Shown piece after piece: positions 10,917-32,397 of a stretch of 64,000 nt of DNA. The notes beneath the pieces were generated by a model. The model did not search any database, was not told where the DNA came from, and saw only the letters and a program-made list of their open reading frames with translations. The translations under genes were made by a program, and so were the position numbers. The stretch is from an uncultured Opitutia bacterium (GTDB taxonomy: Bacteria > Verrucomicrobiota > Verrucomicrobiia > Opitutales > Opitutaceae), in contig CAIMFY010000096.1 in the NCBI GenBank assembly GCA_903840415.1, positions 62,001-126,000 on the forward strand, written 5' to 3'. Each line of letters opens with the position of its first letter. Position 1 is the first letter of the stretch.

Positions 10917-12508
10917 TTCGCCGGGGCTTTAGCATTCCAGACCGCCAGGGTGTCGGTCGAGCCCTGGGCGCGGACACCGTTGTCGGAGAGAATCTCGTCG
11001 GTGGCGGCGAGCATCTCCTTGCGGGTAAACACTAGGGCTTCCATATTGCGACCGACGAACTCGAAGGTGAGAAACTCGTCCTTCGTATCGCGCAACACCT
11101 CGACGAGGTGCTCCAGATTCTTGATCGCGATCCCGTTGACCGTCTTTACGGTGTGGAACGCGGGCCCGCCATAGCCCTTCGAGAGTTTGTGCGGGAAAAA
11201 CGGTGAGGAGACGGCGACGAGTTGCTCGCCGTCGAACGCTGGCTGGTCGCCGCGGCGTGTGACGAGCGGGCTGCCCATCGCACCGAATCCGACCACGAAG
11301 TTGGCGTTGCTGGCGAAGCCGGCGGTGAACTGCGCCGTGACCGTCGTGAACACGAGCGGCCCGAACACAAAATACGAAGGATAGGTGCCCCGCAGATCGG
11401 GGATCAGCATCGGGCGGTCGGGGGTGACGGGGAGGGCGACGGCCATTTCCTTGCCGCCGCGAACGATCATGAGCGGCACTTTGCCTTCCTTCGCGATTTG
11501 CTGGATGAGATATTGGAAGCGCACGCGGAGGTTCGTGCCGAGCTTGATCATGCCTTGGTCGTCGATCTTCGTGTCGCCGATTTTAGTGATGACGTCCCAT
11601 TCCTTAAGCGGATAGCTCGCATCGGTGCCGTAGGCCTCGTGGACGACCATGCCTTCAACGTCCTTGCCGAGCTTGAGCGAGGAGCGGAGGGCGGGGTTTT
11701 CTAGCGTCTGGAGTTCGTCGAACATCGCGGGTTTGCCGTCGTATTTGCCGTCGGCGACATCCTTGAGAAACAGTTCCACTTCCTCGTTGGGGATGATGTA
11801 ACCGATGTTTTGCGCGCCGCCGAGATGGCTGAACGCGAGCCCGATCATCTTGTCGCCCACGATCGCGGGGCCGCCGCTGTTGCCAGGATTGATCGCCGCG
11901 TCGATTTGGATGCGGAGGCCGGAGGTGGAGAGATTGTAGCCGGCGAACTCGATGCGCGAGACGATGCCCTTGGTGATCGATAGGCTGGTTCCGCCGGTGG
12001 GATAGCCGTAGGCGAGGACGGCATCCTTGATGTCAGGCAGCGTGCTGGCGCGGGCGAGCGGCGGGCGCGTGTCGAAGAACGATTCGTCATCGAGTTTCAG
12101 CACCGCGAGGTCGATGCCCTGTGCGATCGACTCGACGGTGGCGGAGATTTTGTCGCCGGCCTGGTTGGCCTGCACCTGCACTTGGCTCGCGTACAGGACG
12201 ACGTGGGCGTTGGTGAGGATGCGCTTGCCTTCGATGATGACACCGGTGCCGGTGGCCTCGGTCGGCGCCTGCTTCGACCACGGTTTGTAAGCGTCAGGGT
12301 AGCGCATCGTGGAAAAAACTTTCACGACGGCGTTTTCGACGGCGTTGGATTTAGCATCGGTGGCCGCAGTCGCACCTGCGGGGGCAGCCGGCGCGGCTGG
12401 ATCGATCTTAGCTGGCTCGTAGGCGAGCGAGACAGAAATCAAGGAGGCGAGCGCGGCAGTCCGAAAGGCAATCTGGCGCACGCTGGGGAGGCGCGAGGGA
12501 TGGGGCAT
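10913..12508 (-). CDS. Exported trypsin-like (DegP/HtrA-related) serine protease
   Basis: 531 residues from the ATG at 12508; a TTG 15 bases upstream is less likely. A signal peptide ends near LAYEPAK. The chymotrypsin-fold triad is visible as His102 (LTNAHVV), Asp133 (GIDLAVLKL) and Ser211 (NPGNSGGPA), the S1C pattern. Two later segments (about 255-350 and 440-500, with LKEWDVITKIGDTKIDD and HTVKTVNGIAIKNLEHLV) look like PDZ domains. HtrA-like proteases cut misfolded envelope proteins. The stop overlaps the clpP start (ATGA), coupling an envelope and a cytoplasmic protease. A hairpin sits just ahead of the start codon. Confidence 0.88.
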   Translation of the reverse strand: MPHPSRLPSVRQIAFRTAALASLISVSLAYEPAKIDPAAPAAPAGATAATDAKSNAVENAVVKVFSTMRYPDAYKPWSKQAPTEATGTGVIIEGKRILTNAHVVLYASQVQVQANQAGDKISATVESIAQGIDLAVLKLDDESFFDTRPPLARASTLPDIKDAVLAYGYPTGGTSLSITKGIVSRIEFAGYNLSTSGLRIQIDAAINPGNSGGPAIVGDKMIGLAFSHLGGAQNIGYIIPNEEVELFLKDVADGKYDGKPAMFDELQTLENPALRSSLKLGKDVEGMVVHEAYGTDASYPLKEWDVITKIGDTKIDDQGMIKLGTNLRVRFQYLIQQIAKEGKVPLMIVRGGKEMAVALPVTPDRPMLIPDLRGTYPSYFVFGPLVFTTVTAQFTAGFASNANFVVGFGAMGSPLVTRRGDQPAFDGEQLVAVSSPFFPHKLSKGYGGPAFHTVKTVNGIAIKNLEHLVEVLRDTKDEFLTFEFVGRNMEALVFTRKEMLAATDEILSDNGVRAQGSTDTLAVWNAKAPAK

Positions 12509-12512
12509 AACT

Positions 12513-12537
12513 CGCTGAGGCAAAACCAGCCTCGGCG
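12513..12537 (-). promoter_or_regulatory. Hairpin immediately upstream of the HtrA-like start codon
   Basis: A 9-bp inverted repeat (cgctgaggc/gcctcggcg, one mismatch) with a 7-base loop ends four bases before the ATG at 12508, covering the place where a ribosome site would lie. No T-run follows on the minus strand, so it does not look like a terminator for the upstream guanine deaminase gene. A role in translation control, for example melting under heat, is inference. Confidence 0.35.
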
Positions 12538-12589
12538 GAACGCCAGTTTCTTTTTTAGGGCGTCGCCCGGGTCGAACGGCGCGCGTGGG

Positions 12590-13060
12590 TCAGTAGCGGA
12601 CTTTGTCCGTCTTCTTCGCCCACTCTTTGAACGCCTCTTGCGCCTCGTCGCGCAGCAGCAGGGTCATCTTGATAGTGCGCTGGCTGGGTGGCAGCGGCAC
12701 TTGCTGGTAAATAAAATCGTCGTCGAAACCGATCGCCGCGGCGTCGGTGCGTGTGTTGGCGTAAAAGACTTGCGGGATGCGCGCCCAGTAAATTGCCGAG
12801 AGACACATCGGGCAGGGCTCGCAACTCGTGTAGAGTTCGCAGTCGTCGAGCTGAAACGTTTCGAGGTGAGCACACGCGTCGCGGATGGCGACCACCTCGG
12901 CATGAGCTGTGGGGTCGTTGGTCGAGGTCACGCGGTTGTGCCCGCGGCCGACGACTTCGCCCTTCCGGACGACGACGCAGCCGAATGGCCCGCCGCGACC
13001 GCTCCGCATCCCGACTTCGGCCAGATGCAGGGCTTCGCGCATGAATTTTTTATCGCTCAT
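12590..13060 (-). CDS. guaD: Guanine deaminase, cytidine-deaminase fold
   Basis: 156 residues from the ATG at 13060; upstream in-frame extension is ignored because MSDKKFMREALHLAE is the usual start of the family. Zinc ligands are His53 of HAEVVAIRDA, with Glu55 as proton shuttle, and Cys83/Cys86 of EPCPMC. The C-terminal RTIKMTLLLRDEAQEAF and WAKKTDKVRY fit GuaD, which turns guanine into xanthine and ammonia. A tRNA adenosine deaminase is less likely given the long C-terminal part and the location. It is divergent from a run of purine-degradation genes that end with xanthine dehydrogenase, the enzyme that would use its product. Confidence 0.85.
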   Translation of the reverse strand: MSDKKFMREALHLAEVGMRSGRGGPFGCVVVRKGEVVGRGHNRVTSTNDPTAHAEVVAIRDACAHLETFQLDDCELYTSCEPCPMCLSAIYWARIPQVFYANTRTDAAAIGFDDDFIYQQVPLPPSQRTIKMTLLLRDEAQEAFKEWAKKTDKVRY

Positions 13061-13137
13061 GAAGGTGTGGGGACGCGAAGCGTGCACTATCGTGCTGACA
13101 CGTGACAATGCCATATCTTTGCTCCGCACCCACCGCC

Positions 13138-14730
13138 ATGAATTCCCACTCCACGATCTCCGGTCTCGAAATCCGCGGCCCGCTCAGTCCGCGCCACGCG
13201 GAAATCCTCACGCCCGGTGCGTGCGCTTTCCTCGCGGACCTGTTCAAGAAATTCGGCGGGCGCCGCGAAGAACTCCTCGCGCGCCGCGTCGCCCGCCAGC
13301 GCGAACTCGACGCGGGCGTGCTGCCCGATTTTCCCGCGGAAACGGCGCACATCCGCAACGATCCGAGTTGGCGCGTCGCACCCACGCCCGCCGACCTGCA
13401 GGATCGTCGCACAGAAATTACCGGTCCGACTGACCGCAAGATGGTCATCAACGCGCTCAACTCCGGGGCGAAGGTGTTCATGGCCGACTTCGAGGATGCC
13501 ACGGCGCCGACGTGGGAAAACCTGCTCGACGGCCACCTCAACCTCCGCGACGCAATCCGCCGCACGATCACGTTGGAGATTCCCGGCGGGAAAAGTTATA
13601 AGCTCAACGACAAGGTCGCGACGCTGCTTGTCCGCCCACGCGGCTGGCACCTTCCGGAGAAACATGTGTGGATGGACGGTCAACCGGTTCCCGGCGGGCT
13701 CTTCGACTTCGGTCTTTATTTTTTTCACAACGCGAAAGAACTCCTCGCGCGCGGCAGCGGCCCATATTTTTACCTGCCAAAAATGGAGAGCCACCTCGAA
13801 GCGCGGCTCTGGAACGACGTCTTCACCCATGCTGAGGCGACACTCGGCGTCCCGCACGGCAGCGTGCGCGGCACGATGCTCATCGAGACGATTCTCGCGA
13901 CCTTCGAGGCCGAGGAGATGCTCTACGAACTCCGCGAACATGCGAGCGGGCTCAACTGTGGCCGCTGGGACTATATTTTCTCGCGCATCAAAAAGCTTCC
14001 GAAGCTCGGCATGTTCCCTGATCGCGCGTTGGTGACGATGACCTCGCCGTTCATGCGCGCCTATTCCCTTCACGTGATCAAGATTTGCCATTGCCGCGGC
14101 GCGTTCGCGATGGGCGGCATGGCCGCGCAGATTCCGATCAAGAACAACCCGGTGGCCAACGAGGTCGCTCTCGCGAAGGTGCTCGCCGACAAAGAGCGTG
14201 AGGCGACCGACGGCCATGACGGCACCTGGGTCGCTCATCCGGGCCTCGTGCCGATTGCGCTCCAAGCGTTCGACAAGCACATGCCGCAGCCGAACCAAGT
14301 CTCGCGCCAGCGACCCGATGTGAATGTAACCGCCGCCGAACTGCTCGCGGCGCCTCCGGGCAACATCACGGAGGCCGGCGTGCGGCTGAACCTCAGTGTC
14401 GGCGTGCAATACCTCGAGGCGTGGCTCGGTGGTCTCGGCTGCGTGCCGCTCTACAATCTGATGGAAGACGCCGCGACTGCCGAAATTTCGCGCGCGCAGC
14501 TTTGGCAGTGGCACCGCTTCGGCGCGGCGCTCGCCGACGGCCGCAAGATCACCAGCGAACTCTACGATCGTTTTATGGCCGAAGAATTGGTGAAGATTCA
14601 GGGCGAGATCGGTGCGGAGCGTTATGCGAAGGGTAATTTCCCGAAGGCGACTGAGATGTTCCTGCGGATGGTGAAAGCGGACAAATTCGACGAATTTCTC
14701 ACGTTGCCCGCCTACGAACAGCTCGCGTGA
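13138..14730 (+). CDS. aceB: Malate synthase A
   Basis: 530 residues from the ATG at 13138, matching the usual length of malate synthase A. It condenses glyoxylate with acetyl-CoA to malate. Recognition: [16 protein letters not shown] (substrate-site region), the family signature around [17 protein letters not shown], and [20 protein letters not shown]. No isocitrate lyase gene is near. Instead it heads five ureide-pathway genes on the same strand (eight bases to the next), so the glyoxylate is likely to come from purine rather than from isocitrate. The 77-base gap to guaD should contain divergent promoters; I cannot place them firmly. Confidence 0.95.
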
Positions 14731-14737
14731 GTTCGCG

Positions 14738-15247
14738 ATGCTTTCGCTCGCCGAGATCAATTCGCTCGACGGCGCGGCCTTCACCGCGGCGCTCGGCCAC
14801 CTCTTCGAGCATTCGCTGTGGGTCGCCGAGAGGACGTGGACGCAGCGACCTTTCCGCGATACCGCGCAACTGCACGCGGCGCTGTGCGCGACGATGCGGG
14901 CCGCGCCGCGTGATCGGCAACTCGCACTCATTCGTGCGCACCCCGATCTCGCCGGCCGGCTGGCGCAGCAAAATAGGCTCACGGTCGAATCGACGCGCGA
15001 GCAGGCAAGCGCCGGCTTAAGTCAGCTCACGGCGGCCGAACTCACCGCATTTCAGGAAAACAACGGCGCCTATCTCGCGCGCTTTGGGTTTCCATTCATC
15101 ATCTGCGCGCGGCTGACCAACAAGTCCGCCATTCTGGCGGCAATGCAGTCGCGCCTCGGAAATTCACCGGCCGAAGAATTTTCCACCGCTCTGGGGGAAA
15201 TCGAAAAAATCGCGCAGTTGCGCCTGAACGACGTTGTGCAAGGCTAG
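14738..15247 (+). CDS. uraD: 2-oxo-4-hydroxy-4-carboxy-5-ureidoimidazoline (OHCU) decarboxylase
   Basis: 169 residues, the family's normal length. OHCU decarboxylase makes S-allantoin from the product of HIU hydrolase, the last step of uricolysis. Key features are FEHSLWVAE near residue 23, RAHPDLAG (about 67-74, with the catalytic His), [20 protein letters not shown] (about 105-124) and a C-terminal helix with [10 protein letters not shown]. The gene lies between malate synthase and HIU hydrolase with intervals under ten bases, indicating one operon. Confidence 0.92.
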
Positions 15248-15251
15248 ACGC

Positions 15252-15596
15252 ATGCCCGCCAAACTGAGCACCCACGTCCTCGACCTCACGCGCGGCGCGC
15301 CAGCCGCCGGAATGAAGATCGAATTCTGGCGGCACGCCGACAAAGCCGAACTGATCAAGACCGTCGTGACCAACGTCGACGGCCGCACCGATACGCCACT
15401 GCTTGAGGCGAGCGCGATGGTGGTGGGTGATTACGAACTGGTGTTTCACGTGCGCCAGTATTTTGCCGCCCACAAGGTCGAGTGCTCTTTTCTCGATCGC
15501 GTGCCGATCCGCTTTCACGTGGCCGACGCCACGGCTGGCTACCATGTCCCGCTGCTGGTGACGCCGTGGGCCTACAGCACCTATCGCGGAAGCTGA
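15252..15596 (+). CDS. uraH: 5-hydroxyisourate hydrolase (transthyretin-like)
   Basis: 114 residues from the ATG at 15252. It starts with [18 protein letters not shown] and ends exactly in YRGS, both hallmarks of HIU hydrolases; transthyretins lack the terminal YRGS. The enzyme hydrolyses the unstable oxidation product of urate to OHCU. There is no signal peptide, so it is cytoplasmic. The gene starts four bases after the OHCU decarboxylase stop and ends one base before the next ATG. Confidence 0.96.
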
Positions 15597-15597
15597 G

Positions 15598-16833
15598 ATG
15601 CCACCTGCCGCGAAGCAACTGGCCCAGATGCTCGACGAACTCGGCCGCGTGACGGACGAGCCGGGAAAACTCACGCGCACCTTTTTGTCGCCCGCGATGC
15701 GGCGCGCAAACGCCCGCGTCGGCCAGTGGATGCGCGGCGCCGGACTCGCGGTGCGCGAAGATTCCATGGGCAACCTCATCGGCCGTGTCGAAGCACCGAC
15801 GGTCGGCGCGAAGACGCTGTTGCTCGGCTCGCACCTCGACACTGTGCGCGATGCAGGGCGTTTCGACGGCGCGCTCGGCGTGCTGCTGCCGATCGTGGCG
15901 CTCGGCGAACTCAAGCGCCGCGGGATCGCGCTGCCCTTTGCGATCGAAGTGATCGGATTTGCCGAGGAGGAAGGGGTGCGGTTTTCCAGTGCCTACCTTG
16001 GTAGCAAAGGCTACGCCGGGCGGTTGCGGGCGGTGGATTTGAAATTTCGCGACGCGCAAGGCATCAGCGCGGGTGACGCCCTGCGCGCGTTCGGGAACGG
16101 CAAATTCTCGTTGCCGCCAGCCCCGCACCGGGTGCGCGATTTGCTCGGCTACATTGAGGTTCACATCGAGCAGGGTCCGGTGTTGGAAGCAAAGAAGCTG
16201 GCGGTCGGCGTCGTCTCCGCCATTGCGGGTCAGACTCGCGGTCGGCTCACCTTTCAGGGGAAGGCCGGCCATGCCGGCACTACGCCGATGCACTTGCGGC
16301 GCGACGCATTGGCGGGCGCGGCGGAATTTATTCTCTTCGCGGAGACGCTGGCGCGCGGCTGCGAACCGCTGGTCGCCACCGTCGGCACGGCGGCCGTAGC
16401 GCCCGGTGCGCCCAACGTCATTCCGGGCGAGGTGAAGCTGTCACTCGACGTGCGCCACCCGCGTAACGACTCGCGGATCGCGGCACTCACGCTCTTGCTT
16501 GATGCGGCGAAGAAGATTGCCCGGCAGCGCAAACTCTCATGCGCGTGGCAGCCGACGCAGGATAATGGCGCAACGACATGTTCGCCGGACCTGACCGCGT
16601 TGCTCGAACAAAGCAACCGTGCGGTGCAGCGCCGGAGTCTTTCGCTCGTGAGCGGTGCGGGCCACGATGCAGTAGTGATGTCCACGCTTACGCCGGTCGC
16701 GATGCTGTTCGTGCGCTGTCGCGACGGACTCAGCCACCATCCAGATGAATTTGCGATGCCAGCTGACCTCGACATCGCGCTGCAGGTGGTCATCGATTTT
16801 CTCCTGCGTCTCGCGAAGGATTCTACACAATGA
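15598..16833 (+). CDS. allC: Allantoate amidohydrolase (M20 family)
   Basis: 411 residues. A binuclear M20 metal site is visible: GSHLDTVRDAGRFDGALGV (His, Asp), FAEEEGVRFSSAYLGS (Glu pair), HIEQGPVLE, and a C-terminal SGAGHDAVVMS with the last His. The RFDG version of the motif is typical of allantoate amidohydrolases, which release ammonia, CO2 and S-ureidoglycine. Related enzymes are ureidoglycolate amidohydrolase and N-carbamoyl-amino-acid hydrolase. Position directly before allantoinase, with a four-base overlap (ATGA), favours the allantoate role, though a ureidoglycolate activity cannot be excluded. Confidence 0.85.
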   Translation: MPPAAKQLAQMLDELGRVTDEPGKLTRTFLSPAMRRANARVGQWMRGAGLAVREDSMGNLIGRVEAPTVGAKTLLLGSHLDTVRDAGRFDGALGVLLPIVALGELKRRGIALPFAIEVIGFAEEEGVRFSSAYLGSKGYAGRLRAVDLKFRDAQGISAGDALRAFGNGKFSLPPAPHRVRDLLGYIEVHIEQGPVLEAKKLAVGVVSAIAGQTRGRLTFQGKAGHAGTTPMHLRRDALAGAAEFILFAETLARGCEPLVATVGTAAVAPGAPNVIPGEVKLSLDVRHPRNDSRIAALTLLLDAAKKIARQRKLSCAWQPTQDNGATTCSPDLTALLEQSNRAVQRRSLSLVSGAGHDAVVMSTLTPVAMLFVRCRDGLSHHPDEFAMPADLDIALQVVIDFLLRLAKDSTQ

Positions 16834-18239
16834 AAAGTTATCAGTCCTTTGCCAAGAAGGCGCCCCTCGAGCCGGATCGGCTCGATCTCGTCGTACGCGG
16901 CGGAAAACTTGTCACGCCCGACGGCGTCATTCGCGCCGATCTCGCCGTAATGCGCGGTCGCATCGCAAAGATTGCGCCAGAGATCTCCGACGGCGCGGTC
17001 ACTACGCTCGATGCTTCGGGCCGCTATGTGTTTCCGGGCATCGTCGATGCGCATGTGCATTTCAACGAGCCGGGACGCGTCGATTGGGAGGGGCTCGCCA
17101 CTGGCTCGGCGGCGCTCGCGGCGGGTGGTGGCACCTGTTTCTTCGACATGCCGCTCAACTCCGAACCTCCGGTGCTCGACGCTGCGGGCCTGCGGGAGAA
17201 GCGGGCGCTCGCCGAGGAAAAATCGTGCGTCGATTTCGCGCTCTGGGGCGGTCTCACGCCGCTCAATCTCGACAAACTCACCGGCCTGCGCGACGCCGGC
17301 GCGATCGGCCTCAAGGCGTTCATGTCGAACAGCGGCATCGAGAGTTTTCCGCACGTCGACGCGAAAATCCTGCGCGAAGGCATGAAGCGCGCTGCGAAAC
17401 TGGAGATCCTCGTCGCCGTCCATGCGGAGGATGAGGCGCTGGCGAACAAGTTCACCGCCGAGCAAAAAGCGAAGGGTCGCACCGATGCCAAGGCGTGGTT
17501 GGCGTCGCGCCCGGTCGAAGTCGAACTCGCCGCGATCCGCACCGCGATCGAGTTGGCCGGCGAGACTGGGTGCGCATTGCACATCGTGCATGTGAGTAGT
17601 CCGGAGGGCATCGCCTTGATCGACGAGGCGCGGGCGGCGCGCGTGGATGTCACCGCTGAGACGTGCCCGCACTATCTTTTGCTCAACGACAAGGACGTCG
17701 GTCAGCTAGGCGCGCTCGGCAAATGCGCGCCGCCGATTCGTGACGAGAAACGTCGGGTCGCGTTGTGGGAGGATTTGCGCGCGGGACGAATTCAGACGAT
17801 TGGCTCGGACCATTCGCCGTCGCGACCGGAGATGAAGGATTCGGCGAACATGTTTGCCGTCTGGGGTGGCATCGCGGGCTGCCAGCATGGCGCGCAACTG
17901 CTGATGTCAGAGTGCGCGAAAACCGCGGAAAAGGACTTGCCGATCCTCGCGGCCGTGCTGGCGCGCAACGTCGCACGTCGGTTCCGCATCGATGCGCGCA
18001 AGGGCGAGCTCGCCCTCGGACGCGATGCGGATTTCTCGCTGATCAAATTCGGCACCGTGCACGAAATCGAGGCGGACGAATTGTGGACACGCCACCGAAT
18101 CAGCCCGTATGTCGGTCGCCGCAGCCGGGTGCGTGTGACGGATACCTACGTGCGCGGCTGTGCAGTCTACGCCGCTGGCCGGTTGACGAATCTCCCTCAA
18201 CCCGGTCAATTTCTTACACCGCATCGCGGAAATTCATGA
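16830..18239 (+). CDS. allB: Allantoinase
   Basis: 469 residues, of the cyclic amidohydrolase superfamily. The metal site reads DAHVHFNEPGR (His75, His77), GLKAFMSNSG (the Lys that is carbamylated), VAVHAEDE, LHIVHVSS and TIGSDHSP (Asp). Allantoinase opens the allantoin ring to allantoate. Dihydropyrimidinase and dihydroorotase are relatives, but the NEPGRVDWEG sequence and the neighbours fit allantoinase. It overlaps both neighbours by four bases (ATGA each). Confidence 0.93.
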   Translation: MKSYQSFAKKAPLEPDRLDLVVRGGKLVTPDGVIRADLAVMRGRIAKIAPEISDGAVTTLDASGRYVFPGIVDAHVHFNEPGRVDWEGLATGSAALAAGGGTCFFDMPLNSEPPVLDAAGLREKRALAEEKSCVDFALWGGLTPLNLDKLTGLRDAGAIGLKAFMSNSGIESFPHVDAKILREGMKRAAKLEILVAVHAEDEALANKFTAEQKAKGRTDAKAWLASRPVEVELAAIRTAIELAGETGCALHIVHVSSPEGIALIDEARAARVDVTAETCPHYLLLNDKDVGQLGALGKCAPPIRDEKRRVALWEDLRAGRIQTIGSDHSPSRPEMKDSANMFAVWGGIAGCQHGAQLLMSECAKTAEKDLPILAAVLARNVARRFRIDARKGELALGRDADFSLIKFGTVHEIEADELWTRHRISPYVGRRSRVRVTDTYVRGCAVYAAGRLTNLPQPGQFLTPHRGNS

Positions 18240-18979
18240 GCATTCCCTACGGCCAGACCCGCACGCGCATCGCCGCGCGCCACGCCCTCATTGCCCCCGA
18301 CGGTCACGTGAAGAGCATAGTCCCCGGCGTCACCGGCGCCGCGACGATCATCCTCATCAACGAGGCGATAGGCGCGAAATTCGCGCAGGTGATGGTGACG
18401 TTTGAGTCGGGCGGCCGCGCGGCGCTGCCGGCGAACGACGTCGAAACCGCGGGCTACTTCGCGACGGGCGGAGGCACGCTGACGATTGGCGACGTAAAAG
18501 AAAAAGTGGCGGCAGGCGCGTTTTTTTTCGCCCCGGCGGGCGAAGCCTGGTCGATCACGGCGCCGAAGGCTGGCACGCGGGTGACACTCTTTCAGAAGAA
18601 ATTTGCACCCGTCGCCGGCGGTTCCACGCCGCCGCCGATCATCGGCGACGCGGCGAAGATCGAAGGCCAGCCGTTCCTGGGCGACCCGGATGCGCGGCTG
18701 CAAGTCCTGTTGCCCGATGTGCCGGCGTTCGATCTGGCGATGAACATTTTCACCTACCAGCCGGGTGCGACGCTGCCTTTTGTCGAGACGCACGTGATGG
18801 AGCACGGGTTGCTGATGCTCGCGGGGCAGGGCGTTTACCGGCTCGAGGATTCGTGGTATCCGGTCGCCGCCGGTGACGTGATTTGGATGGCGCCGTTCTG
18901 CCCGCAGTGGTTTGTCGCGATGGGTAAGTCGCCGGCGAGCTATCTATATTACAAGGATGTGAATCGCGCGGCGCTGTGA
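18236..18979 (+). CDS. allE: (S)-ureidoglycine aminohydrolase, bicupin
   Basis: 247 residues from the ATG at 18236 that overlaps the allantoinase stop. Two cupin repeats are present. The second carries the manganese-binding FVETHVMEHGLLMLAG, the strongest signature of this family (also called YlbA or UGlyAH). The enzyme removes ammonia from S-ureidoglycine to give S-ureidoglycolate stereospecifically. It closes the operon begun by malate synthase. A run of eight T at about 18519-18526 encodes part of AFFFAPAG. Confidence 0.93.
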   Translation: MSIPYGQTRTRIAARHALIAPDGHVKSIVPGVTGAATIILINEAIGAKFAQVMVTFESGGRAALPANDVETAGYFATGGGTLTIGDVKEKVAAGAFFFAPAGEAWSITAPKAGTRVTLFQKKFAPVAGGSTPPPIIGDAAKIEGQPFLGDPDARLQVLLPDVPAFDLAMNIFTYQPGATLPFVETHVMEHGLLMLAGQGVYRLEDSWYPVAAGDVIWMAPFCPQWFVAMGKSPASYLYYKDVNRAAL

Positions 18980-19030
18980 GGGGTGCGAGAGTTGAGTTGC
19001 CCGCGCGAGGTCGGTGCGTAAATAAGGAGC

Positions 19031-22000
19031 ATGAGTAACACCTCCGCCGCCTCGGTCAGTGCGGCGCCAACCGATTCGTTTGAATTTTCGCTCAACGGCC
19101 AGCCAGTGCGGGTCGAGGGTTTGCCCGCGACGACCACACTGCTCGAGTGGTTGCGCGCCACGGGTCGCACCGGCAGCAAGTGTGGCTGTGCCGAGGGTGA
19201 CTGCGGCGCGTGTTCGGTGGCGCTCGTCGAGCGCGATGCGACCGGCCGGCCGATCTACCGCGCGATCAACAGTTGCATTGCGCTGCTGCCAATGTTTGCG
19301 AGACGCGAGGTCGTGACGGTCGAGGGTCTCGCATGCGACGGGAGTGGTGAAGAAAAACTTCATCCCGTGCAGGCGGCGATGGTGGAGCACTACGGCTCGC
19401 AGTGTGGCTACTGCACGCCGGGCTTCGTGATGTCGGCGTTCGAGGGCTACTACCGCGACGGCGCGAAAACGCAGGCGCAACTCTGCGATCAACTCTGCGG
19501 CAATCTCTGCCGCTGCACCGGTTACCGTCCGATTCGCGATGCGGCGACCGATGCCTGGGCGCGGCGCACGCCGGAGCGCGATGCGGCTGATCCGTTTGCG
19601 CAGCGGCTGAACGAAGTGATCGAGCCGCTGACCGCTCTCAACTACGCGGGCGGCAGCGAGCAATTTTTCCGTCCGGCGTCGCTGGTAGAGCTCTTCGCGC
19701 TGCGCAGTCGCCACCCGCAGGCGAAGCTTGTCGCCGGTGCGACTGAGATCGGCGTGGAGCTGAACAAGAAATTCAGGCGCTTTCCCACCCTTATCTCGGT
19801 CGAGGGTGTGCCAGAACTGACGCGCATCGTGGCGGCGCCGACGGAATGGCGCATCGGCGCGGCCGCGACGCTCACGGCCGCCGAGGAGGCGCTCGCGGGG
19901 GAATTTTCGTCCGTGGCGAAGATGCTCGCGGTGTTTGCGGCGCGGCAAATCCGCAATCGCGCCACACTCGGTGGCAACCTCGTGACGGCTTCGCCGATCG
20001 GTGACAGCGCGCCGGTGTTGCTCACGCTCGATGCGAGCGTCGTGCTCGCCTCGACGCTCGGCGAGCGCACGGTGCCGCTGGATGGGTTTTTTACGGGCTA
20101 CCGGCAGACGCAGCTCCGGCCGGACGAAGTGATGAAGGAAATCGTGCTGCCGCGCGGCGGGCCAGCCGCAGGGCTCACCCGGCGAGTGGATTTCCAAAAA
20201 GTGTCTCACAGGCGCGAGCTCGACATCAGCATCGTGGCGGGTGCGTTCTGCGTGGACGTGGACGCGGGCGGCGTCGTGCGGAAGGCGCGCCTCGCCTTTG
20301 GCGGCGTGGCCGTGATGCCGCTGCGCGCGCGGCGGGCGGAGGCGGCGCTCGAAGGGAAAAAATTTGCCGAAGCCGCGAGCGCAGTGGCGGAGATTTTGCG
20401 CGGCGAGTTTGCGCCGATCGACGATGCGCGTGGGAGTGCAGAATATCGGCGCGGCGTGGTAGTTGCGCTCTGGGAGAAATTTGTCGCGGATGAGACGAGC
20501 CTCGCGGTGGATGCGCCGGCGAGTTTTGTCGGGAGCGCGCCGTGGCGGGTCGAGCCGGCGTCGAAACAACTGCGCCACGAGAGCGCAGTCGGGCATGTGA
20601 CCGGACGCGCGGAATATGTGGACGACACGGCGCAGAAGCGGCTGATGCTAGAGGTGTGGCCGGTGATGTCGCTGCATGCGCGGGCAAAAATCAAACGGCG
20701 CGACGCCGGGCCGGCGCGCGCGATGCCGGGCATTGCGGCAGTGCTGCTGGCCGAGGATGTGCCGGGCCACAACAACGTCGGCGTGGCGCGCCACGACGAG
20801 CCGCTCCTCGCAGCGGACGAAGTCTGCTTTCATGGGCAGATCGTGGCGCTGGTCGTGGGCGAGTCGGTCGCGGCGTGCCGAGCGGCTGCCGCGCTCGTGC
20901 AGGTGGAGTATGAACTGGTCCCGCCGGTGCTGACGATTCGCGACGCGATCGCGCGGGAAAGTTTTCATAGTCTGCCACGGGTGATGACTCGGGGCGATTG
21001 CGCGGAAGCGATGAGCATTGCACCACAGCGCCTCGCAGGTGAATTCGAGTTTGGCGGGCAGGAACATTTTTATCTTGAGACGCAGGCGGCGTGGGCGGAG
21101 CTGGGCGACGATGGCGATGTCTTCATCGCGTCGAGCACGCAGCATCCGTCCGAGATTCAGGCGATCGTGAGTGAAGTGCTCCACCTACCGCGCAACAAAG
21201 TCGTCGTGCAGGCGCCGCGGATGGGCGGCGGTTTCGGCGGCAAGGAAACGCAGGGCAACACGCCTGCCGCGCTCGTTGCTCTCGCTGCGCTCAAGACCGG
21301 CCGGCCCGTGCGACTCCAGTGGGATCGCGACCTCGACATGGCGCTCACGGGCAAGCGGCATCCGTTCTTCGCGAAATTCGAAGTGGGCTTTACCCACGAC
21401 GGCGTGATTCGCGCGGTGTCGGCGGACTTGGTTTCCGATGGCGGCTGGTCGCTCGATCTTTCGCAACCGATCATCGACCGCGCGCTGTTTCACCTCGACA
21501 ATGCCTACTACCTGCCGGCGGTGCATTTCACGGGACGCATCGCGAAGACCAACGTCGCCTCCAACACCGCGTTTCGCGGTTTCGGCGGCCCGCAGGGGAT
21601 GCTCATCATCGAGGAAATCATCGACCGCGTGGCGCGGACGCTGGGTTTGCCGCCGGAAGCGGTGCGCGAGCGGAATCTCTACCACGGCACCGGCGAGACC
21701 AACACGACGCACTACGGCGCCGACATCGGCGACAACCGAATCCAGAAAGTGTGGCGGCTCGTTCAGCAGCAGGCGAAGTTCCCGGAACGAAAAAATGAAG
21801 TCGCCGCGTGGAATCAAAAACGCCACCGCGTGAAGCGCGGGCTCGCGGTCACGCCGGTGAAGTTCGGAATTTCCTTCACGCTCACGCATTACAACCAGGG
21901 CGGCGCGCTCGTGCATATTTATCAGGATGGCACGGTGCAGGTAAACCACGGCGGCACCGAGATGGGGCAGGGGCTGCACACCAAGATTCTTGGCGTAGCG

Positions 22001-22843
22001 ATGCGCGAACTCGGGTTGCCCGCGTCGGCCATTCGGATGATGCGCACGAGCACGGAAAAGGTGCCAAATACGTCGGCGACCGCGGCGAGCGCCGGGGCGG
22101 ACCTCAACGGTGCGGCGGTGCTCAAAGCCTGCGCGATGTTGCGGGACCGGCTCATTCCTGTTGCTGGAAAACTTCTCAACGCCGCCGCGGGCGACATCGC
22201 GTTTTCTGACGGATTTGTTTTTGCGAAGGCGAACACCGAAACGCGCCTGCCGTTCGCTAAAATCGTCGCGACTGCCTATGCAGAACGCGTCAGTCTTTCT
22301 GCAACCGGCTATTATTCTACGCCGGGCATCCATTGGAACTGGGAGACGGTGTCGGGCCGGCCGTTTGCCTACTACGCGTGTGGCGCGGCGGTGGCGGAGG
22401 TGGAGGTGGACGGCTACACCGGTATGAGCCGCGTGCGGCGCGTGGACATCGTGCACGACGTCGGCGACTCGCTCAACCCGGGCATCGACCGCGGCCAGAT
22501 CGAGGGCGGCTTCGTGCAAGGCATGGGCTGGCTCACGAGCGAGGATTTAAAATGGGACGCCGCGGGCCGGCTCCTCACGCACAGCGCGAGCACGTATCAA
22601 ATTCCCGCTGTCAGCGACGCGCCGATGGAGTTCAACGTCACGTTGCTCCCCGACGCCGCGAACGAGAAGGCCGTGCACGGCAGCAAGGCCGTGGGCGAAC
22701 CGCCACTGATGCTGGCCTTCAGTGTCCGCGAAGCGATTCGCGATGCCGTCTCGAATTTCGGCAAACCCGGCGGCCAAGTCCCGCTGGCGTCACCGGCGAC
22801 CGGCGAGGCGGTGTGGCGGGCGATTCAGAGTCGAACACTTTAA
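19031..22843 (+). CDS. xdh: Xanthine dehydrogenase, single polypeptide (Fe-S/FAD/Mo)
   Basis: 1270 residues containing all three parts of xanthine dehydrogenase in one chain. The first [2Fe-2S] cluster uses Cys53, Cys58, Cys61 and Cys82; the second uses Cys125, Cys128, Cys160 and Cys162 (CGYC, LCRC). An FAD-binding domain (about 180-470, with LVAGATEIGVELNKKF) and a large molybdopterin domain follow (from about 520; GGGFGGKETQ, RGFGGPQG). The catalytic Glu of SKAVGEPPL is about residue 1223. It oxidises hypoxanthine and xanthine to urate. Many bacteria split this enzyme into two or three subunits. AAGGAG ends only one base before the ATG, a very short spacing. The XdhC insertion factor is not in the window. 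Confidence 0.93.
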   Translation: MSNTSAASVSAAPTDSFEFSLNGQPVRVEGLPATTTLLEWLRATGRTGSKCGCAEGDCGACSVALVERDATGRPIYRAINSCIALLPMFARREVVTVEGLACDGSGEEKLHPVQAAMVEHYGSQCGYCTPGFVMSAFEGYYRDGAKTQAQLCDQLCGNLCRCTGYRPIRDAATDAWARRTPERDAADPFAQRLNEVIEPLTALNYAGGSEQFFRPASLVELFALRSRHPQAKLVAGATEIGVELNKKFRRFPTLISVEGVPELTRIVAAPTEWRIGAAATLTAAEEALAGEFSSVAKMLAVFAARQIRNRATLGGNLVTASPIGDSAPVLLTLDASVVLASTLGERTVPLDGFFTGYRQTQLRPDEVMKEIVLPRGGPAAGLTRRVDFQKVSHRRELDISIVAGAFCVDVDAGGVVRKARLAFGGVAVMPLRARRAEAALEGKKFAEAASAVAEILRGEFAPIDDARGSAEYRRGVVVALWEKFVADETSLAVDAPASFVGSAPWRVEPASKQLRHESAVGHVTGRAEYVDDTAQKRLMLEVWPVMSLHARAKIKRRDAGPARAMPGIAAVLLAEDVPGHNNVGVARHDEPLLAADEVCFHGQIVALVVGESVAACRAAAALVQVEYELVPPVLTIRDAIARESFHSLPRVMTRGDCAEAMSIAPQRLAGEFEFGGQEHFYLETQAAWAELGDDGDVFIASSTQHPSEIQAIVSEVLHLPRNKVVVQAPRMGGGFGGKETQGNTPAALVALAALKTGRPVRLQWDRDLDMALTGKRHPFFAKFEVGFTHDGVIRAVSADLVSDGGWSLDLSQPIIDRALFHLDNAYYLPAVHFTGRIAKTNVASNTAFRGFGGPQGMLIIEEIIDRVARTLGLPPEAVRERNLYHGTGETNTTHYGADIGDNRIQKVWRLVQQQAKFPERKNEVAAWNQKRHRVKRGLAVTPVKFGISFTLTHYNQGGALVHIYQDGTVQVNHGGTEMGQGLHTKILGVAMRELGLPASAIRMMRTSTEKVPNTSATAASAGADLNGAAVLKACAMLRDRLIPVAGKLLNAAAGDIAFSDGFVFAKANTETRLPFAKIVATAYAERVSLSATGYYSTPGIHWNWETVSGRPFAYYACGAAVAEVEVDGYTGMSRVRRVDIVHDVGDSLNPGIDRGQIEGGFVQGMGWLTSEDLKWDAAGRLLTHSASTYQIPAVSDAPMEFNVTLLPDAANEKAVHGSKAVGEPPLMLAFSVREAIRDAVSNFGKPGGQVPLASPATGEAVWRAIQSRTL

Positions 22844-22847
22844 CGCA

Positions 22848-23204
22848 CTATGCGTCCCGGTGGACTGTCCCTGGCGAAAACGCCGGCAGGCACACCGCGA
22901 TGTATTCCGCGCCTTGCGGCGTCGAGTAGCGGACCCATTCGCCTTTGTGTGTGATGACGGCGGAGCCGGCTGCGACTTCGAGCGTGCCAGTCTTCGACTC
23001 GACGCGGAGCGCGCCGCGGAGGACGACCGTGAATTCGTCAAACTCGGGCGTCTGGCCGGGTTCGACCCAGCCGGCGGGGCTCGTCATGCGTGCGACGCTG
23101 AGGGCGTCGGTCTTTGAGTTCACGCGGCCGATGAACTCCTCGATTTTTTTCGGCGGCAGACCGGCGGCGGTGATGATGGACGGAGCTGGGATCAGGGTTG
23201 GCAT
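22848..23204 (-). CDS. Small single-domain cupin protein
   Basis: 118 residues from the ATG at 23204; an in-frame start 15 bases upstream is possible. It is a single beta-barrel cupin with WVEPGQTPEFDEFTVVLRG (first motif, with Glu and Asp but no His pair) and GSAVITHKGEWVRYSTPQG (second motif). It resembles EutQ-like or sugar-binding cupins of unknown activity. It faces xdh tail to tail with a four-base gap. The missing ureidoglycolate step makes a role in purine catabolism conceivable, but nothing in its sequence proves that. Confidence 0.65.
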   Translation of the reverse strand: MPTLIPAPSIITAAGLPPKKIEEFIGRVNSKTDALSVARMTSPAGWVEPGQTPEFDEFTVVLRGALRVESKTGTLEVAAGSAVITHKGEWVRYSTPQGAEYIAVCLPAFSPGTVHRDA

Positions 23205-23266
23205 GGTGGGAAACAACACTTTTTAACTCGGGATTGCACGGATGAACACGGATGGAGTCCGTGCGT

Positions 23267-23848
23267 CTATTGGTTGTTGGACTTGGTTCCAACCGAAACG
23301 CTGAGCCAGCCGCGCGCATCGAGGGCGCGATAAAACAGGGAGATGTGCATGACGTTCGTAAATTCGCCACTTCGGGTCATCGCGATGACTTCCGCGACCG
23401 AGAAGAATCGACTTTCGATCGCCTCGGTTTCGTCGAACTTCGTCGCTTGGGTAAGTTGCACATTTCGGGTGGCAAACCCATGCACGCGATTCGTGTGGCG
23501 TGCGGGATTGCTGTGATAGCCGCCGAGGTGTTCCCAAGAATCGCCCACTGCGCCGGTTTCCTCGCGCAGCTCGCGCTCTGCGGTCGCGAGCAACGTTTCT
23601 CCATCGTCAGCGGCACCGCCCGGAAATTCCCAGGAAAATTCCCCAACGGGGTGACGATACTGGCGCACGAGGAGAACCTGTTCCTCGCGATCGAACGCGA
23701 CCACGTGAACCCACTCGGGATACTCCATCACATAGTAGGGCTCGACGATGTGGCCCGGCGCGACCTCGCAACGGTCGGCCCGAAGTTGAATCCAGCGATC
23801 GCGCAGAATGTCGCGGGATGAAATTCGCTTCCAAGGATGAAGATTCAT
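23267..23848 (-). CDS. Nudix hydrolase, ADP-ribose pyrophosphatase-like
   Basis: 193 residues with ATG at 23848. The Nudix box is complete: GGAADDGETLLATAERELREETGA (about residues 77-100), following the G-x5-E-x7-REUXEEXGU pattern that binds magnesium. The N-terminal WIQLRADRCEVAPG and the VRQYRHPVGEFSWEFPGG strand match ADP-sugar pyrophosphatases of the NudF/YffH type, so a nucleoside diphosphate sugar is the likely substrate. It is separated from the cupin gene by 62 bases on the same strand. Confidence 0.85.
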   Translation of the reverse strand: MNLHPWKRISSRDILRDRWIQLRADRCEVAPGHIVEPYYVMEYPEWVHVVAFDREEQVLLVRQYRHPVGEFSWEFPGGAADDGETLLATAERELREETGAVGDSWEHLGGYHSNPARHTNRVHGFATRNVQLTQATKFDETEAIESRFFSVAEVIAMTRSGEFTNVMHISLFYRALDARGWLSVSVGTKSNNQ

Positions 23849-23899: not shown

Positions 23900-26290
23900 T
23901 TATTTCGTCGTCGTGGCGCCCGGATAGGAAATTTCCAGTTTGCTGTAGACGTTGGTGCTGCCGCGAGGCCAATTCACTCCGGCGCCGCCGAAGCGGTTGG
24001 GTGCGATCGTGCCGGTGAGTGAAAGCGTTTCCTGATCCACGTCGTTCGACGCGGTCGCGCGGAGCGTGGTGCCGGTGACTTTGATCGTGAGCTGGGTTGT
24101 CGGTTTGAAAACACCGCTGAGCACCTGCCGGTCGTCGAGCGGCGAGCCGGCGCCGTTTTCGATTTTGTAGAATTGGAACATGCACTTTGCAGCGGACTGC
24201 GTCGTGCGCCAGAAGCGGAGCGCATAGCCGTTTTTGGTGCGCGGATCGTATTTGATGAGAATGTCCGCGTGGAGATTGCGCTCGCCGGAGTCGGCGGGTG
24301 AACCGGGGATGGAGAAGCCGGTGCCTTCGGTTTTCTCGGGCGTCATCACGAGGTCGAACTGCATGTCACCCGTTGCTGCATCGCGCTGGTATAGGAGCGA
24401 TCCCGGTGTGGTCGGATGGACGCCGTAGCCGCTGGAAAATTTTTCTTCCGCCACGGTCACCCACGTGCCCAAAACCGCCCAGAGGCCGTTCCCGCAGGTT
24501 TCGTTGGTCTCGGGCAGCCAGCTCTTGAAATCGACCGAGACGGTGGTCGCCATGAGATCGGATGCGGCGACGGGTTGGACGGACATCGCTTGGACGGACG
24601 GGCCAGGATCGCTGATGTTATGCTTGGGCTGAATTCCAACTCTGAGGAATTTGCCGACATAGCCCGGCGTCAACGCGAGTGACTTCAACGGCTGGTTGCC
24701 CCGGCTCACGGCCACGATTCGCGGATGCGCTCCAGTGGCATCGTCGCAGATCCACCACGAAACGAGTGACTGATCCAGTTTGCCACGCAGGTCGAGCTGG
24801 TAGGTTACGGAGACCGTGCCCTTGTCCGGAGGATTCAACGTCGGCCCGGCGATGACCGCTGGCGGATCGATGAACTTCGGCTCAACGAAAACCCACGCGG
24901 TCACGAAGAATCCATTCGAGGCGGTAGCGTTGATCGGAATCCACTCGGCGTATTCCGTGAGATTGCGGCCGGTGACCACGACCTTCGGGCCGGTGGTGGC
25001 GTTCAACGTGACGAGGTCGGATTTCGTGGACCATGTGATCGTTGCATCGGTCGCACGCGCGGGGGTGACGGTGGCGCCGATCGTCGCGCCTGGTCCGTCG
25101 GTGCGAATCGTCGGAGCGCCGCCCGTGAGTGCGATGCGGAAGGGCAAGTCACTCTGGCCGGCGGGTTCATATTTTACACGGACACCGGCGGGATCCCAAT
25201 TGTCGGCCGGGCCGGCGGTCGGCGCGCGGAGGAGATTCCACGGATTGTAGGCGGATAGTTCGCGCTCGGAGAGTTCGCGGGCATAGTCGAAGGTGGGTGG
25301 GCCGACCGTGCCGTCGGGAATCACGGCGGGCTGGCCGTCGGGATATTTCACCCGATAGGTGAGCGAATACTGACTCGGGCGCGGAGTGATTTTGCCGCGC
25401 GACCACGTGGTGTTGGGCGGCACGACGCAGTTGATGAGCGCGACCGGTCGTGCGGCGCTGCCGAATTCGACCTTGTAGAATTGCATCCGCTGGGCGGCCT
25501 CGAAGCGGCAGTTGAAAAACACGATGTTCGAGGACGACATCACTCCGCGACCGACCGAGTAAACGAGCGTGGAGTCCTCCCACACGCTCATCTGGCCGCC
25601 GCCCATCCAGTCGTCGGTGCCCTCGATGAAAACGTTTTTGAAGTAGGAGCGCGCCGTCCGGATAAACGTCGTGTCGAGCCGGCTCAGAAAAGCGACGTTC
25701 TCGTAAACGTGCTTGTCGCCCTGGCACTGCAGTGCGACCGCCTGCGTGATGACGTCGGAGCGCTTGATGAGATTCTTGCGCGGGTCGCCGGGATACTCGT
25801 AGTCGGTGTTGCAGTAGTTGAGGACGGTGAGGTTGCGCAGCGAGAAACCGGTGGCGTTGACGTCGAGGATGTAACCGTTGTCGTCGGCGCCCTGCTGGTT
25901 GCCGCGGTTGTCGGCGAGCACGACCGCCCGGCGGTTGTTGGTCAGGCCGAGAAACGTGATCCAGTTTTTCGTGATGCGCAGGCTCGGCGTGCGCGAGACG
26001 GTGCTAGGTAGCGGATAGACGTTTGGCTTGAGGCCGATGACGGTTGGGTGCGCCTCGGTGCCTGCGGGCGCGGCTTCGTAGGCGGCTTGGAGCGTCTTGA
26101 ATTTTTTGTTCGCGGCGTCATCTTGGGCGAGGTTGCCATCGACGAGAATGTCGTAGGTCAGCTTCGCCGGATCGATCGCGGCGACGATGGGCTCGGCGCT
26201 GCCGCGGACGTTGTCCTGGGCGTGGATGGAGCGGCTGGAGAACAGCGAGAGAGTGACGGCGAGAATCAGAAAGGCTTGGGGAGTTTTCAT
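23900..26290 (-). CDS. Exported pectinesterase-like (CE8-type beta-helix) protein with C-terminal accessory domains
   Basis: 796 residues from ATG 26290, which gives a clean signal peptide (MKTPQAFLILAVTLSLF ... IHAQ). Residues about 35-360 form a right-handed beta-helix related to pectin methylesterase. The FLSRLDTTFIR stretch matches the canonical QDTL strand, and EGTDDWMGGG matches GTVDFIFG with its nucleophile Asp kept. The sequence otherwise diverges from textbook CE8. After this come an Ig-like part (about 420-520) and a C-terminal beta-rich domain (about 600-796), perhaps carbohydrate-binding. De-esterification of pectin would open it to pectate lyase PelA encoded at 5.8 kb. Confidence 0.75.
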   Translation of the reverse strand: MKTPQAFLILAVTLSLFSSRSIHAQDNVRGSAEPIVAAIDPAKLTYDILVDGNLAQDDAANKKFKTLQAAYEAAPAGTEAHPTVIGLKPNVYPLPSTVSRTPSLRITKNWITFLGLTNNRRAVVLADNRGNQQGADDNGYILDVNATGFSLRNLTVLNYCNTDYEYPGDPRKNLIKRSDVITQAVALQCQGDKHVYENVAFLSRLDTTFIRTARSYFKNVFIEGTDDWMGGGQMSVWEDSTLVYSVGRGVMSSSNIVFFNCRFEAAQRMQFYKVEFGSAARPVALINCVVPPNTTWSRGKITPRPSQYSLTYRVKYPDGQPAVIPDGTVGPPTFDYARELSERELSAYNPWNLLRAPTAGPADNWDPAGVRVKYEPAGQSDLPFRIALTGGAPTIRTDGPGATIGATVTPARATDATITWSTKSDLVTLNATTGPKVVVTGRNLTEYAEWIPINATASNGFFVTAWVFVEPKFIDPPAVIAGPTLNPPDKGTVSVTYQLDLRGKLDQSLVSWWICDDATGAHPRIVAVSRGNQPLKSLALTPGYVGKFLRVGIQPKHNISDPGPSVQAMSVQPVAASDLMATTVSVDFKSWLPETNETCGNGLWAVLGTWVTVAEEKFSSGYGVHPTTPGSLLYQRDAATGDMQFDLVMTPEKTEGTGFSIPGSPADSGERNLHADILIKYDPRTKNGYALRFWRTTQSAAKCMFQFYKIENGAGSPLDDRQVLSGVFKPTTQLTIKVTGTTLRATASNDVDQETLSLTGTIAPNRFGGAGVNWPRGSTNVYSKLEISYPGATTTK

Positions 26291-26370
26291 CGGGGTAAGG
26301 CTTTGCTGCGGGTCAGCAACCTGACGCTTACAACTGCGCGAAGGACTCCGCTGCGTCGCGCCTTTGCACT

Positions 26371-32387: not shown

Positions 32388-32397
32388 TTTTTTTGAC

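Follow-up and report, generated by a model that had tools for sequence, protein, structure and literature searches.

Malate synthase is commonly taken to indicate a glyoxylate shunt. The enzyme acts on glyoxylate whatever its source, with acetyl-CoA as the required second substrate. In Streptomyces coelicolor, malate synthase reportedly occurs among the allantoin genes of the AllR regulon, as Navone and co-workers are said to have described in 2015. For the apicomplexan Nephromyces, one study proposes that urate-derived glyoxylate is converted to malate without isocitrate lyase (PMC6320678). In Pseudomonas aeruginosa and Escherichia coli, allantoin-derived glyoxylate passes through the gcl/glycerate pathway, and the glyoxylate-shunt/malate synthase avenue has been called not appropriate for glyoxylate of this origin (PMC12694930). 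Here we consider a stretch of 64,000 nucleotides from an uncultured Opitutia bacterium of the family Opitutaceae (contig CAIMFY010000096.1, positions 62,001 to 126,000; the whole stretch is henceforth called the window), in which the malate synthase gene aceB heads a run of ureide-degradation genes. From sequence and comparative genomics we regard it as highly probable that the Opitutaceae here carry a cluster for aerobic purine degradation, in which malate synthase is an enzyme of the pathway and not half of the glyoxylate shunt. In the literature covered (titles and abstract openings, with few subscription papers), no description was found of malate synthase among clustered ureide genes of Verrucomicrobiota.

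A first line of evidence is the pairing of aceB with uraD, the gene for 2-oxo-4-hydroxy-4-carboxy-5-ureidoimidazoline (OHCU) decarboxylase, across a sample of 252 genomes of the family, in which weaker matches to the malate synthase profile MS_C were set apart by E-value. UraD is encoded in 76 of these genomes, the malate synthase type of aceB in 64 and both in 60, leaving 16 with UraD only, four with malate synthase only and 172 with neither (Fisher p 7e-38, uncorrected for shared ancestry or block transfer). A preliminary description of the locus had named conservation of aceB next to uraD in relatives as a check beforehand, and this order proved to be general: all 60 genomes with both genes have aceB as the immediate upstream neighbour of uraD in the same orientation, with 27-282 bases between the domain matches. 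The guanine deaminase gene guaD adjoins aceB in most of the family regions read. The weaker MS_C matches include malate synthase G (G113, G163, G106, G031 and G246), malate synthase A beside isocitrate lyase (G086, G007 and G130) and second pieces of malate synthase A (G096 and G251).

Other fates of glyoxylate are sparsely represented. That the stretch has no isocitrate lyase gene, as first noted, holds genome-wide for the draft that contains the window (G000; 4.9 Mb, 124 contigs, 98% complete): isocitrate lyase was not found in it, and its sole match to PF00463, at 29 bits, is the methylisocitrate lyase PrpB, which lies above the NCBIfam cut-offs for that enzyme (418 bits against 353, and 372 against 354). 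Full-length isocitrate lyase, matching both halves of the model, occurs in four of the 252 family genomes (G198, G130, G086 and G007), in all of which malate synthase adjoins it, and in none of the 60 with the aceB-uraD pair; the remaining family matches listed are short and resemble the methylisocitrate lyase match of G000. Glyoxylate carboligase (Gcl) did not exceed the cut-off in any of 29 genomes searched (best score in G000 346 bits, cut-off 711); among 14 control genomes, a single one did. Given that neither enzyme was found, malate synthase would act as a remover of glyoxylate that feeds the tricarboxylic acid (TCA) cycle. The initial proposal of malate synthase as the sink for purine-derived glyoxylate thus draws support from comparative genomics, namely the adjacency in 60 of 60 genomes, the lack of full-length isocitrate lyase in the same 60 and the lack of Gcl above the cut-off in the 29.

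The same searches speak to the idea that AceB works in a glyoxylate shunt after all, the matching isocitrate lyase having been missed or having diverged, with the cluster as a chance neighbourhood. Drafts can lose genes, and G000 is itself a draft; moreover, the family-wide search was not perfectly sensitive, since it missed at least one weak match, the PrpB of G000 that the single-genome search lists. Set against this are the rarity of full-length isocitrate lyase in the family, its absence from every aceB-uraD genome, and the identification of the G000 family member as methylisocitrate lyase, all of which make a hidden shunt most improbable. Another study points the same way, reporting an Opitutaceae isolate without either of the two shunt enzymes (PMC12388122).

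A second line of evidence comes from how the pathway ends in different members of the family. We read the uraD regions of 40 genomes (24 + 16 rows; stretches of 3.7 to 30 kb): aceB is present in 24, and none of these stretches encodes a ureidoglycine-glyoxylate aminotransferase, whereas nine others carry this aminotransferase without aceB or UGHY, the gene for (S)-ureidoglycine aminohydrolase (G147, G149, G020, G218, G213, G009, G215, G216 and G221). The aminotransferases of G218 and G149 score best against the ureidoglycine-glyoxylate aminotransferase 3nnk and next against 3isl (PucG). Such an aminotransferase consumes glyoxylate. It appears likely, then, that the family is split between two exclusive endings, UGHY with malate synthase or the aminotransferase, and that malate synthase, kept in a family mostly devoid of a glyoxylate shunt, is dedicated to purine catabolism and marks the use of purine nitrogen, not growth on acetate. 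The seven remaining regions have neither aceB nor the aminotransferase (G167, G246, G163, G113, G173, G220 and G247), those of G173 and G220 being very short contigs. In G113, G163, G246 and G167, uraD directly adjoins guaD and aceB is gone from its place; malate synthase G is encoded in three of these four genomes (full length in G113 and G246, a C-terminal piece in G163) as against two of the 60 with the aceB-uraD pair (G106 and G031; Fisher p 9e-4).

Malate synthase G is the form associated with glycolate operons, and its presence as a separate gene in the family is relevant to another reading of AceB: a general glyoxylate sink serving mainly glycolate oxidation, for instance of algal glycolate, or glycine, its position in the ureide run being secondary. 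An enzyme indifferent to the source of its glyoxylate would suit such a role, one cluster-bearing Opitutus record is titled Baikal-deep, which suggests a lake habitat, and glycolate oxidase lay outside the searches made. Yet this malate synthase type accompanies uraD in 60 of its 64 genomes, always as its neighbor, and the nine clusters whose ending is a glyoxylate-consuming aminotransferase lack aceB. Along with the separate malate synthase G, these distributions render a general sink unlikely.

AceB itself is predicted to be a malate synthase A: its match to TIGR01344 spans profile positions 1-510 of 511, and it reaches 718 bits against the solved structure 3cux. R166, R168, E250, D278 and D444, which we take to be the active-site arginines and acidic residues, are identical in all 114 aligned rows. 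With a ratio of nonsynonymous to synonymous substitution (dN/dS) of 0.076 relative to G001, aceB is under strong constraint, i.e. purifying selection.

The eight genes named in the preliminary description are all present in the window, and family or structure-database searches back every one (Table 1). Their tight spacing stands for the six genes aceB-uraD-uraH-allC-allB-UGHY, separated by 7, 4, 1, -4 and -4 bases, and has to be given up for the outer two: guaD falls outside the tight run because it is encoded on the minus strand and points away from aceB, 77 bases off, and xdh starts 51 bases past UGHY, with AAGGAG preceding its ATG. The run from aceB to UGHY is probably co-transcribed, as its spacing suggests; the interval 12500-23300 contains 11 terminator-like sites (shuffle mean 11.2), of which the first in plus orientation comes at 22186. 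The eight proteins pass the NCBIfam cut-off of the expected family, with the exceptions of GuaD and the small-subunit half of XDH. The latter protein is a single chain of 1270 amino acids in which the small and large subunits are fused, the small-subunit half scoring 2 bits under its cut-off. GuaD is identified by its similarity to the solved guanine deaminases 1tiy/1wkq, and NCBIfam gives only a sub-threshold TadA match; the frame tabulated is the one from ATG, and a longer GTG frame begins at 13129. A scan of 20 neighbouring proteins of the window found no IclR-type regulator.

Table 1. Cluster genes in the window and two further pathway genes elsewhere in the same genome, with predicted products and supporting matches.
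Gene	Predicted product	Position	Strand	Supporting matches
guaD	guanine deaminase (guanine to xanthine)	12590..13060	-	PF00383 98 bits; solved relatives 1tiy/1wkq 176 bits
aceB	malate synthase A (glyoxylate + acetyl-CoA to malate)	13138..14730	+	TIGR01344 781.5 bits, cut-off 594.5
uraD	OHCU decarboxylase	14738..15247	+	TIGR03164 199 bits, cut-off 96
uraH	5-hydroxyisourate hydrolase	15252..15596	+	TIGR02962 123 bits, cut-off 87; C-terminal YRGS
allC	allantoate amidohydrolase	15598..16833	+	NF006775 523 bits, cut-off 479
allB	allantoinase	16830..18239	+	TIGR03178 520 bits, cut-off 358
UGHY	(S)-ureidoglycine aminohydrolase	18236..18979	+	TIGR03214 276 bits (on a longer frame starting at 17765), cut-off 200; 4e2q 160 bits
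xdh	fused xanthine dehydrogenase	19031..22843	+	TIGR02965 978 bits, cut-off 849.5; TIGR02963 465 bits, cut-off 467
PuuD	membrane urate oxidase	G000:C14:91965-92855		PF06181 440 bits, full domain
UAH-like	ureidoglycolate amidohydrolase (second AllC-like gene)	G000:C119:29224-30459		4pxe 411 bits

On its other side, guaD is flanked in the window by genes for a DegP-like protease and ClpP. Convergent with xdh lies a gene for a small cupin protein (22848-23219, minus strand), which occupies the same place in G001 with 88% identity. Genes for a pectate lyase (5754-7034), a pectinesterase-like protein (23900-26374) and a hydrolase of glycoside hydrolase family 88 (GH88; 32320-33813) flank the ureide cluster on both sides, a hint of the use of plant matter.

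As a route from purine to glyoxylate, the run has two gaps that the preliminary description did not remark on. GuaD, XDH, UraH, UraD, AllB, AllC and UGHY are all found in the cluster, but the urate oxidase and the step from ureidoglycolate to glyoxylate are encoded elsewhere in G000. Xanthine could not be taken to glyoxylate by the run alone, because PuuD from contig C14 and the ureidoglycolate amidohydrolase UAH from contig C119 are needed.

Urate oxidation was at first a candidate for a missing step, since the soluble uricase model PF01014, which finds a match in three of the 252 family genomes, finds none in G000, and the HpxO model fails as well; the search with PF06181 then located PuuD. 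HpxO was itself set aside as the urate oxidase: its G000 matches all score below 22 bits (cut-off 500), and PuuD accounts for the step instead. Over 23 genomes the HpxO model reaches 227-237 bits in G001, G018, G065 and G208, on contigs other than those of the cluster. The translated frame of the G000 PuuD bears a C-terminal CXXCH, and no Pfam cytochrome c match was found in its C-terminus. PuuD has been described as a cytochrome c urate oxidase (PMC4562309); the G000 protein shares PF06181 and the CXXCH with that type and differs in the lack of a Pfam cytochrome c domain and in the location of its gene away from the cluster. Within the 27 genomes tested, PuuD is present in all 17 UraD-positive ones that lack PF01014 and also in G198; it was not found in either of the two UraD-positive genomes with PF01014 (G208 and G147), in any of the five UraD-negative ones, or in G117 and G121.

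For the last hydrolytic step, the second AllC-like protein of G000 scores 411 bits to the ureidoglycolate hydrolase 4pxe, as against 190 bits to the allantoate amidohydrolase 1z2l, and is 57% identical to a paralogue encoded inside the cluster of G208; UAH is also found inside the clusters of G206 and G257. Ureidoglycolate lyase AllA was not found in any of the 27 genomes, G000 included, in a search for which E. coli served as positive control.

Combining these assignments, guanine would be deaminated to xanthine by GuaD and the latter oxidized to urate by XDH. Membrane-bound PuuD, encoded elsewhere, would then yield hydroxyisourate, which UraH would convert to OHCU and UraD to allantoin. AllB would open this to allantoate, AllC would release ureidoglycine and UGHY would turn it into ureidoglycolate, from which UAH, again encoded elsewhere, would produce glyoxylate, ammonia and CO2. 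Finally, AceB would condense glyoxylate with acetyl-CoA, so that a toxic aldehyde is removed and malate enters the TCA cycle. In some other members of the family, the route would end with the ureidoglycine-glyoxylate aminotransferase, in a cluster without UGHY or malate synthase. Both the activities and the flux of purine-derived glyoxylate into malate are predictions from sequence. Because acetyl-CoA would have to come from another substrate, purines would serve mainly as a nitrogen source and an anaplerotic supply of two-carbon units and not as sole carbon source.

Beyond the family, we surveyed the best 80 of at least 574 AceB loci in a collection of named genomes, some of which duplicate family genomes (for example L159/G031 and L162/G208, with identical AceB). 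Of these 80, 35 lie beside isocitrate lyase, nine beside ureide genes (eight of Opitutae type and one from Chthoniobacterales), three are alphaproteobacterial with a divergent puuD and 33 have none of these neighbours, some of the sequences being short. The nearest named malate synthases adjoining uraD, again among the best 80 of at least 574, belong to records labelled Opitutus, Opitutaceae, Opitutae or Opitutia. The Chthoniobacterales locus (L164, 1962-9569) contains allC, uraD, uraH, allB-like pieces, UGHY and UAH, with aceB last, and thus has the same gene content as the Opitutaceae cluster in a different order. In the alphaproteobacterial loci L208, L225 and L228, where profiles found no other ureide gene, puuD is divergent from aceB and two small, similar-looking genes follow behind puuD; these neighbours possibly represent an independent link between urate and malate synthase.

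In a quick AceB tree, the family proteins form one set of 42 rows with a Shimodaira-Hasegawa-like approximate likelihood-ratio (SH-aLRT) support of 98; the verrucomicrobial L164, L163 and L170 fall next to it with lower support, and verrucomicrobial AceBs beside isocitrate lyase (L202 and L237) are placed elsewhere. In a more careful tree (81 of the 114 rows), a branch supported at 100/100 separates the family set minus G198, 41 rows, from the rest. The trees exclude L179 and copies of G253, G199 and G251, for which the aligned piece is short, and the count of changes leaves out seven rows with short flanks.

The row G198 is peculiar. Its locus (L091 7821-10734; G198:C228) reads guaD, aceB and then isocitrate lyase at the contig end, and its remaining ureide genes sit on another contig. 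The G198 AceB is Opitutaceae-like over about residues 1-255 and beyond that nearer to AceBs of other phyla; it takes a basal position to the Opitutaceae set in the quick tree and falls among rows of other phyla in the careful one. The junction of AceB and isocitrate lyase may reflect recombination or misassembly (an assembly chimera). A switch of partner between ureide genes and isocitrate lyase at this one locus was considered and set aside, in view of the mosaic AceB, the contig ending after isocitrate lyase and the ureide genes on a different contig.

Another account of the co-occurrence is that the cluster is transferred and lost in one piece, with aceB a passenger held there by linkage. 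The adjacency is indeed total (60 of 60), and guaD, degP and clpP mostly stay beside the cluster. Against this stand the four genomes in which aceB is gone in place, three of them with malate synthase G, the strong constraint on aceB (dN/dS 0.076), and the Chthoniobacterales locus, where the same content recurs in a second gene order; in addition, PuuD, though unlinked, is distributed alike among the genomes tested. We consider it very unlikely that aceB is carried along by linkage.

Several observations nonetheless weigh against AceB as a dedicated enzyme of purine degradation, besides the limits of the isocitrate lyase search and the glycolate oxidase outside the searches. As clpP and degP beyond guaD are often kept, synteny alone could yield the adjacency. 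The examined set takes in six of the 18 genomes whose sole MS_C match is a weaker one, and the search for the aminotransferase covered the regions read. UAH, at an identity of at least 55% to the in-cluster gene of G208, was found in six of 27 genomes (G208, G246, G198, G178, G001 and G000). G117 and G121, which with G198 and G066 (a 3.7-kb contig) make up the four malate synthase-positive genomes without UraD, have an aceB-allB pair without UraD, PuuD or UAH of the G208 kind. Finally, G167 (99% complete; G167:C24, L095) keeps an otherwise whole ureide run with no malate synthase of type A or G and no Gcl above the cut-off; malate synthase is therefore not an absolute requirement.

The family regions also show further architectural variants. 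In G117 and G121 (L092 4951-7955 and L093 8162-11154), guaD is divergent from the aceB-allB pair, whose members overlap by 4 bases. In G158 (L106 5297-6874), a 5'-nucleotidase-type protein, possibly another purine-scavenging enzyme, is encoded between guaD and aceB. A second, diverged type of ureide cluster, with PuuD and ureidoglycine-glyoxylate aminotransferase, is present in the family at L099, L100, L101 and L248-L251; L100 additionally encodes a protein resembling 8-oxoguanine deaminase, with a score below cut-off, and a 2-oxoglutarate (2OG)-Fe(II) oxygenase.

If AceB is indeed an enzyme of purine degradation, malate synthase as a shunt marker would mislead for about 60 genomes of one family. 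Members with the cluster would be predicted to need a further substrate as a source of acetyl-CoA in order to draw nitrogen from purines, and those with the aminotransferase ending to be independent of malate synthase. The cluster would further be a candidate counter-example to the view of the malate synthase avenue expressed in PMC12694930.

A link between malate synthase and ureide breakdown has precedents in Streptomyces and Nephromyces. Like the locus described here, the Streptomyces coelicolor genes are said to group malate synthase with allantoin degradation, in another phylum and reportedly with another gene set under an IclR-type regulator; unlike S. coelicolor, the Opitutaceae lack full-length isocitrate lyase in 248 of 252 genomes and have urate oxidation assigned to PuuD. 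Nephromyces shares the proposed logic, including an amidohydrolase proposed for ureidoglycolate, and differs in being a eukaryote with a predicted peroxisomal location and transcriptome-based evidence (PMC6320678). P. aeruginosa and E. coli likewise have a dedicated glyoxylate sink, with the P. aeruginosa genes near purine genes, but employ Gcl and GlxR in place of malate synthase (PMC12694930). The ureidoglycine-glyoxylate aminotransferase, with the Bacillus-type PucG (3nnk and 3isl), represents the alternative ending, which within the Opitutaceae occurs in nine of the 40 uraD regions and never there with aceB.

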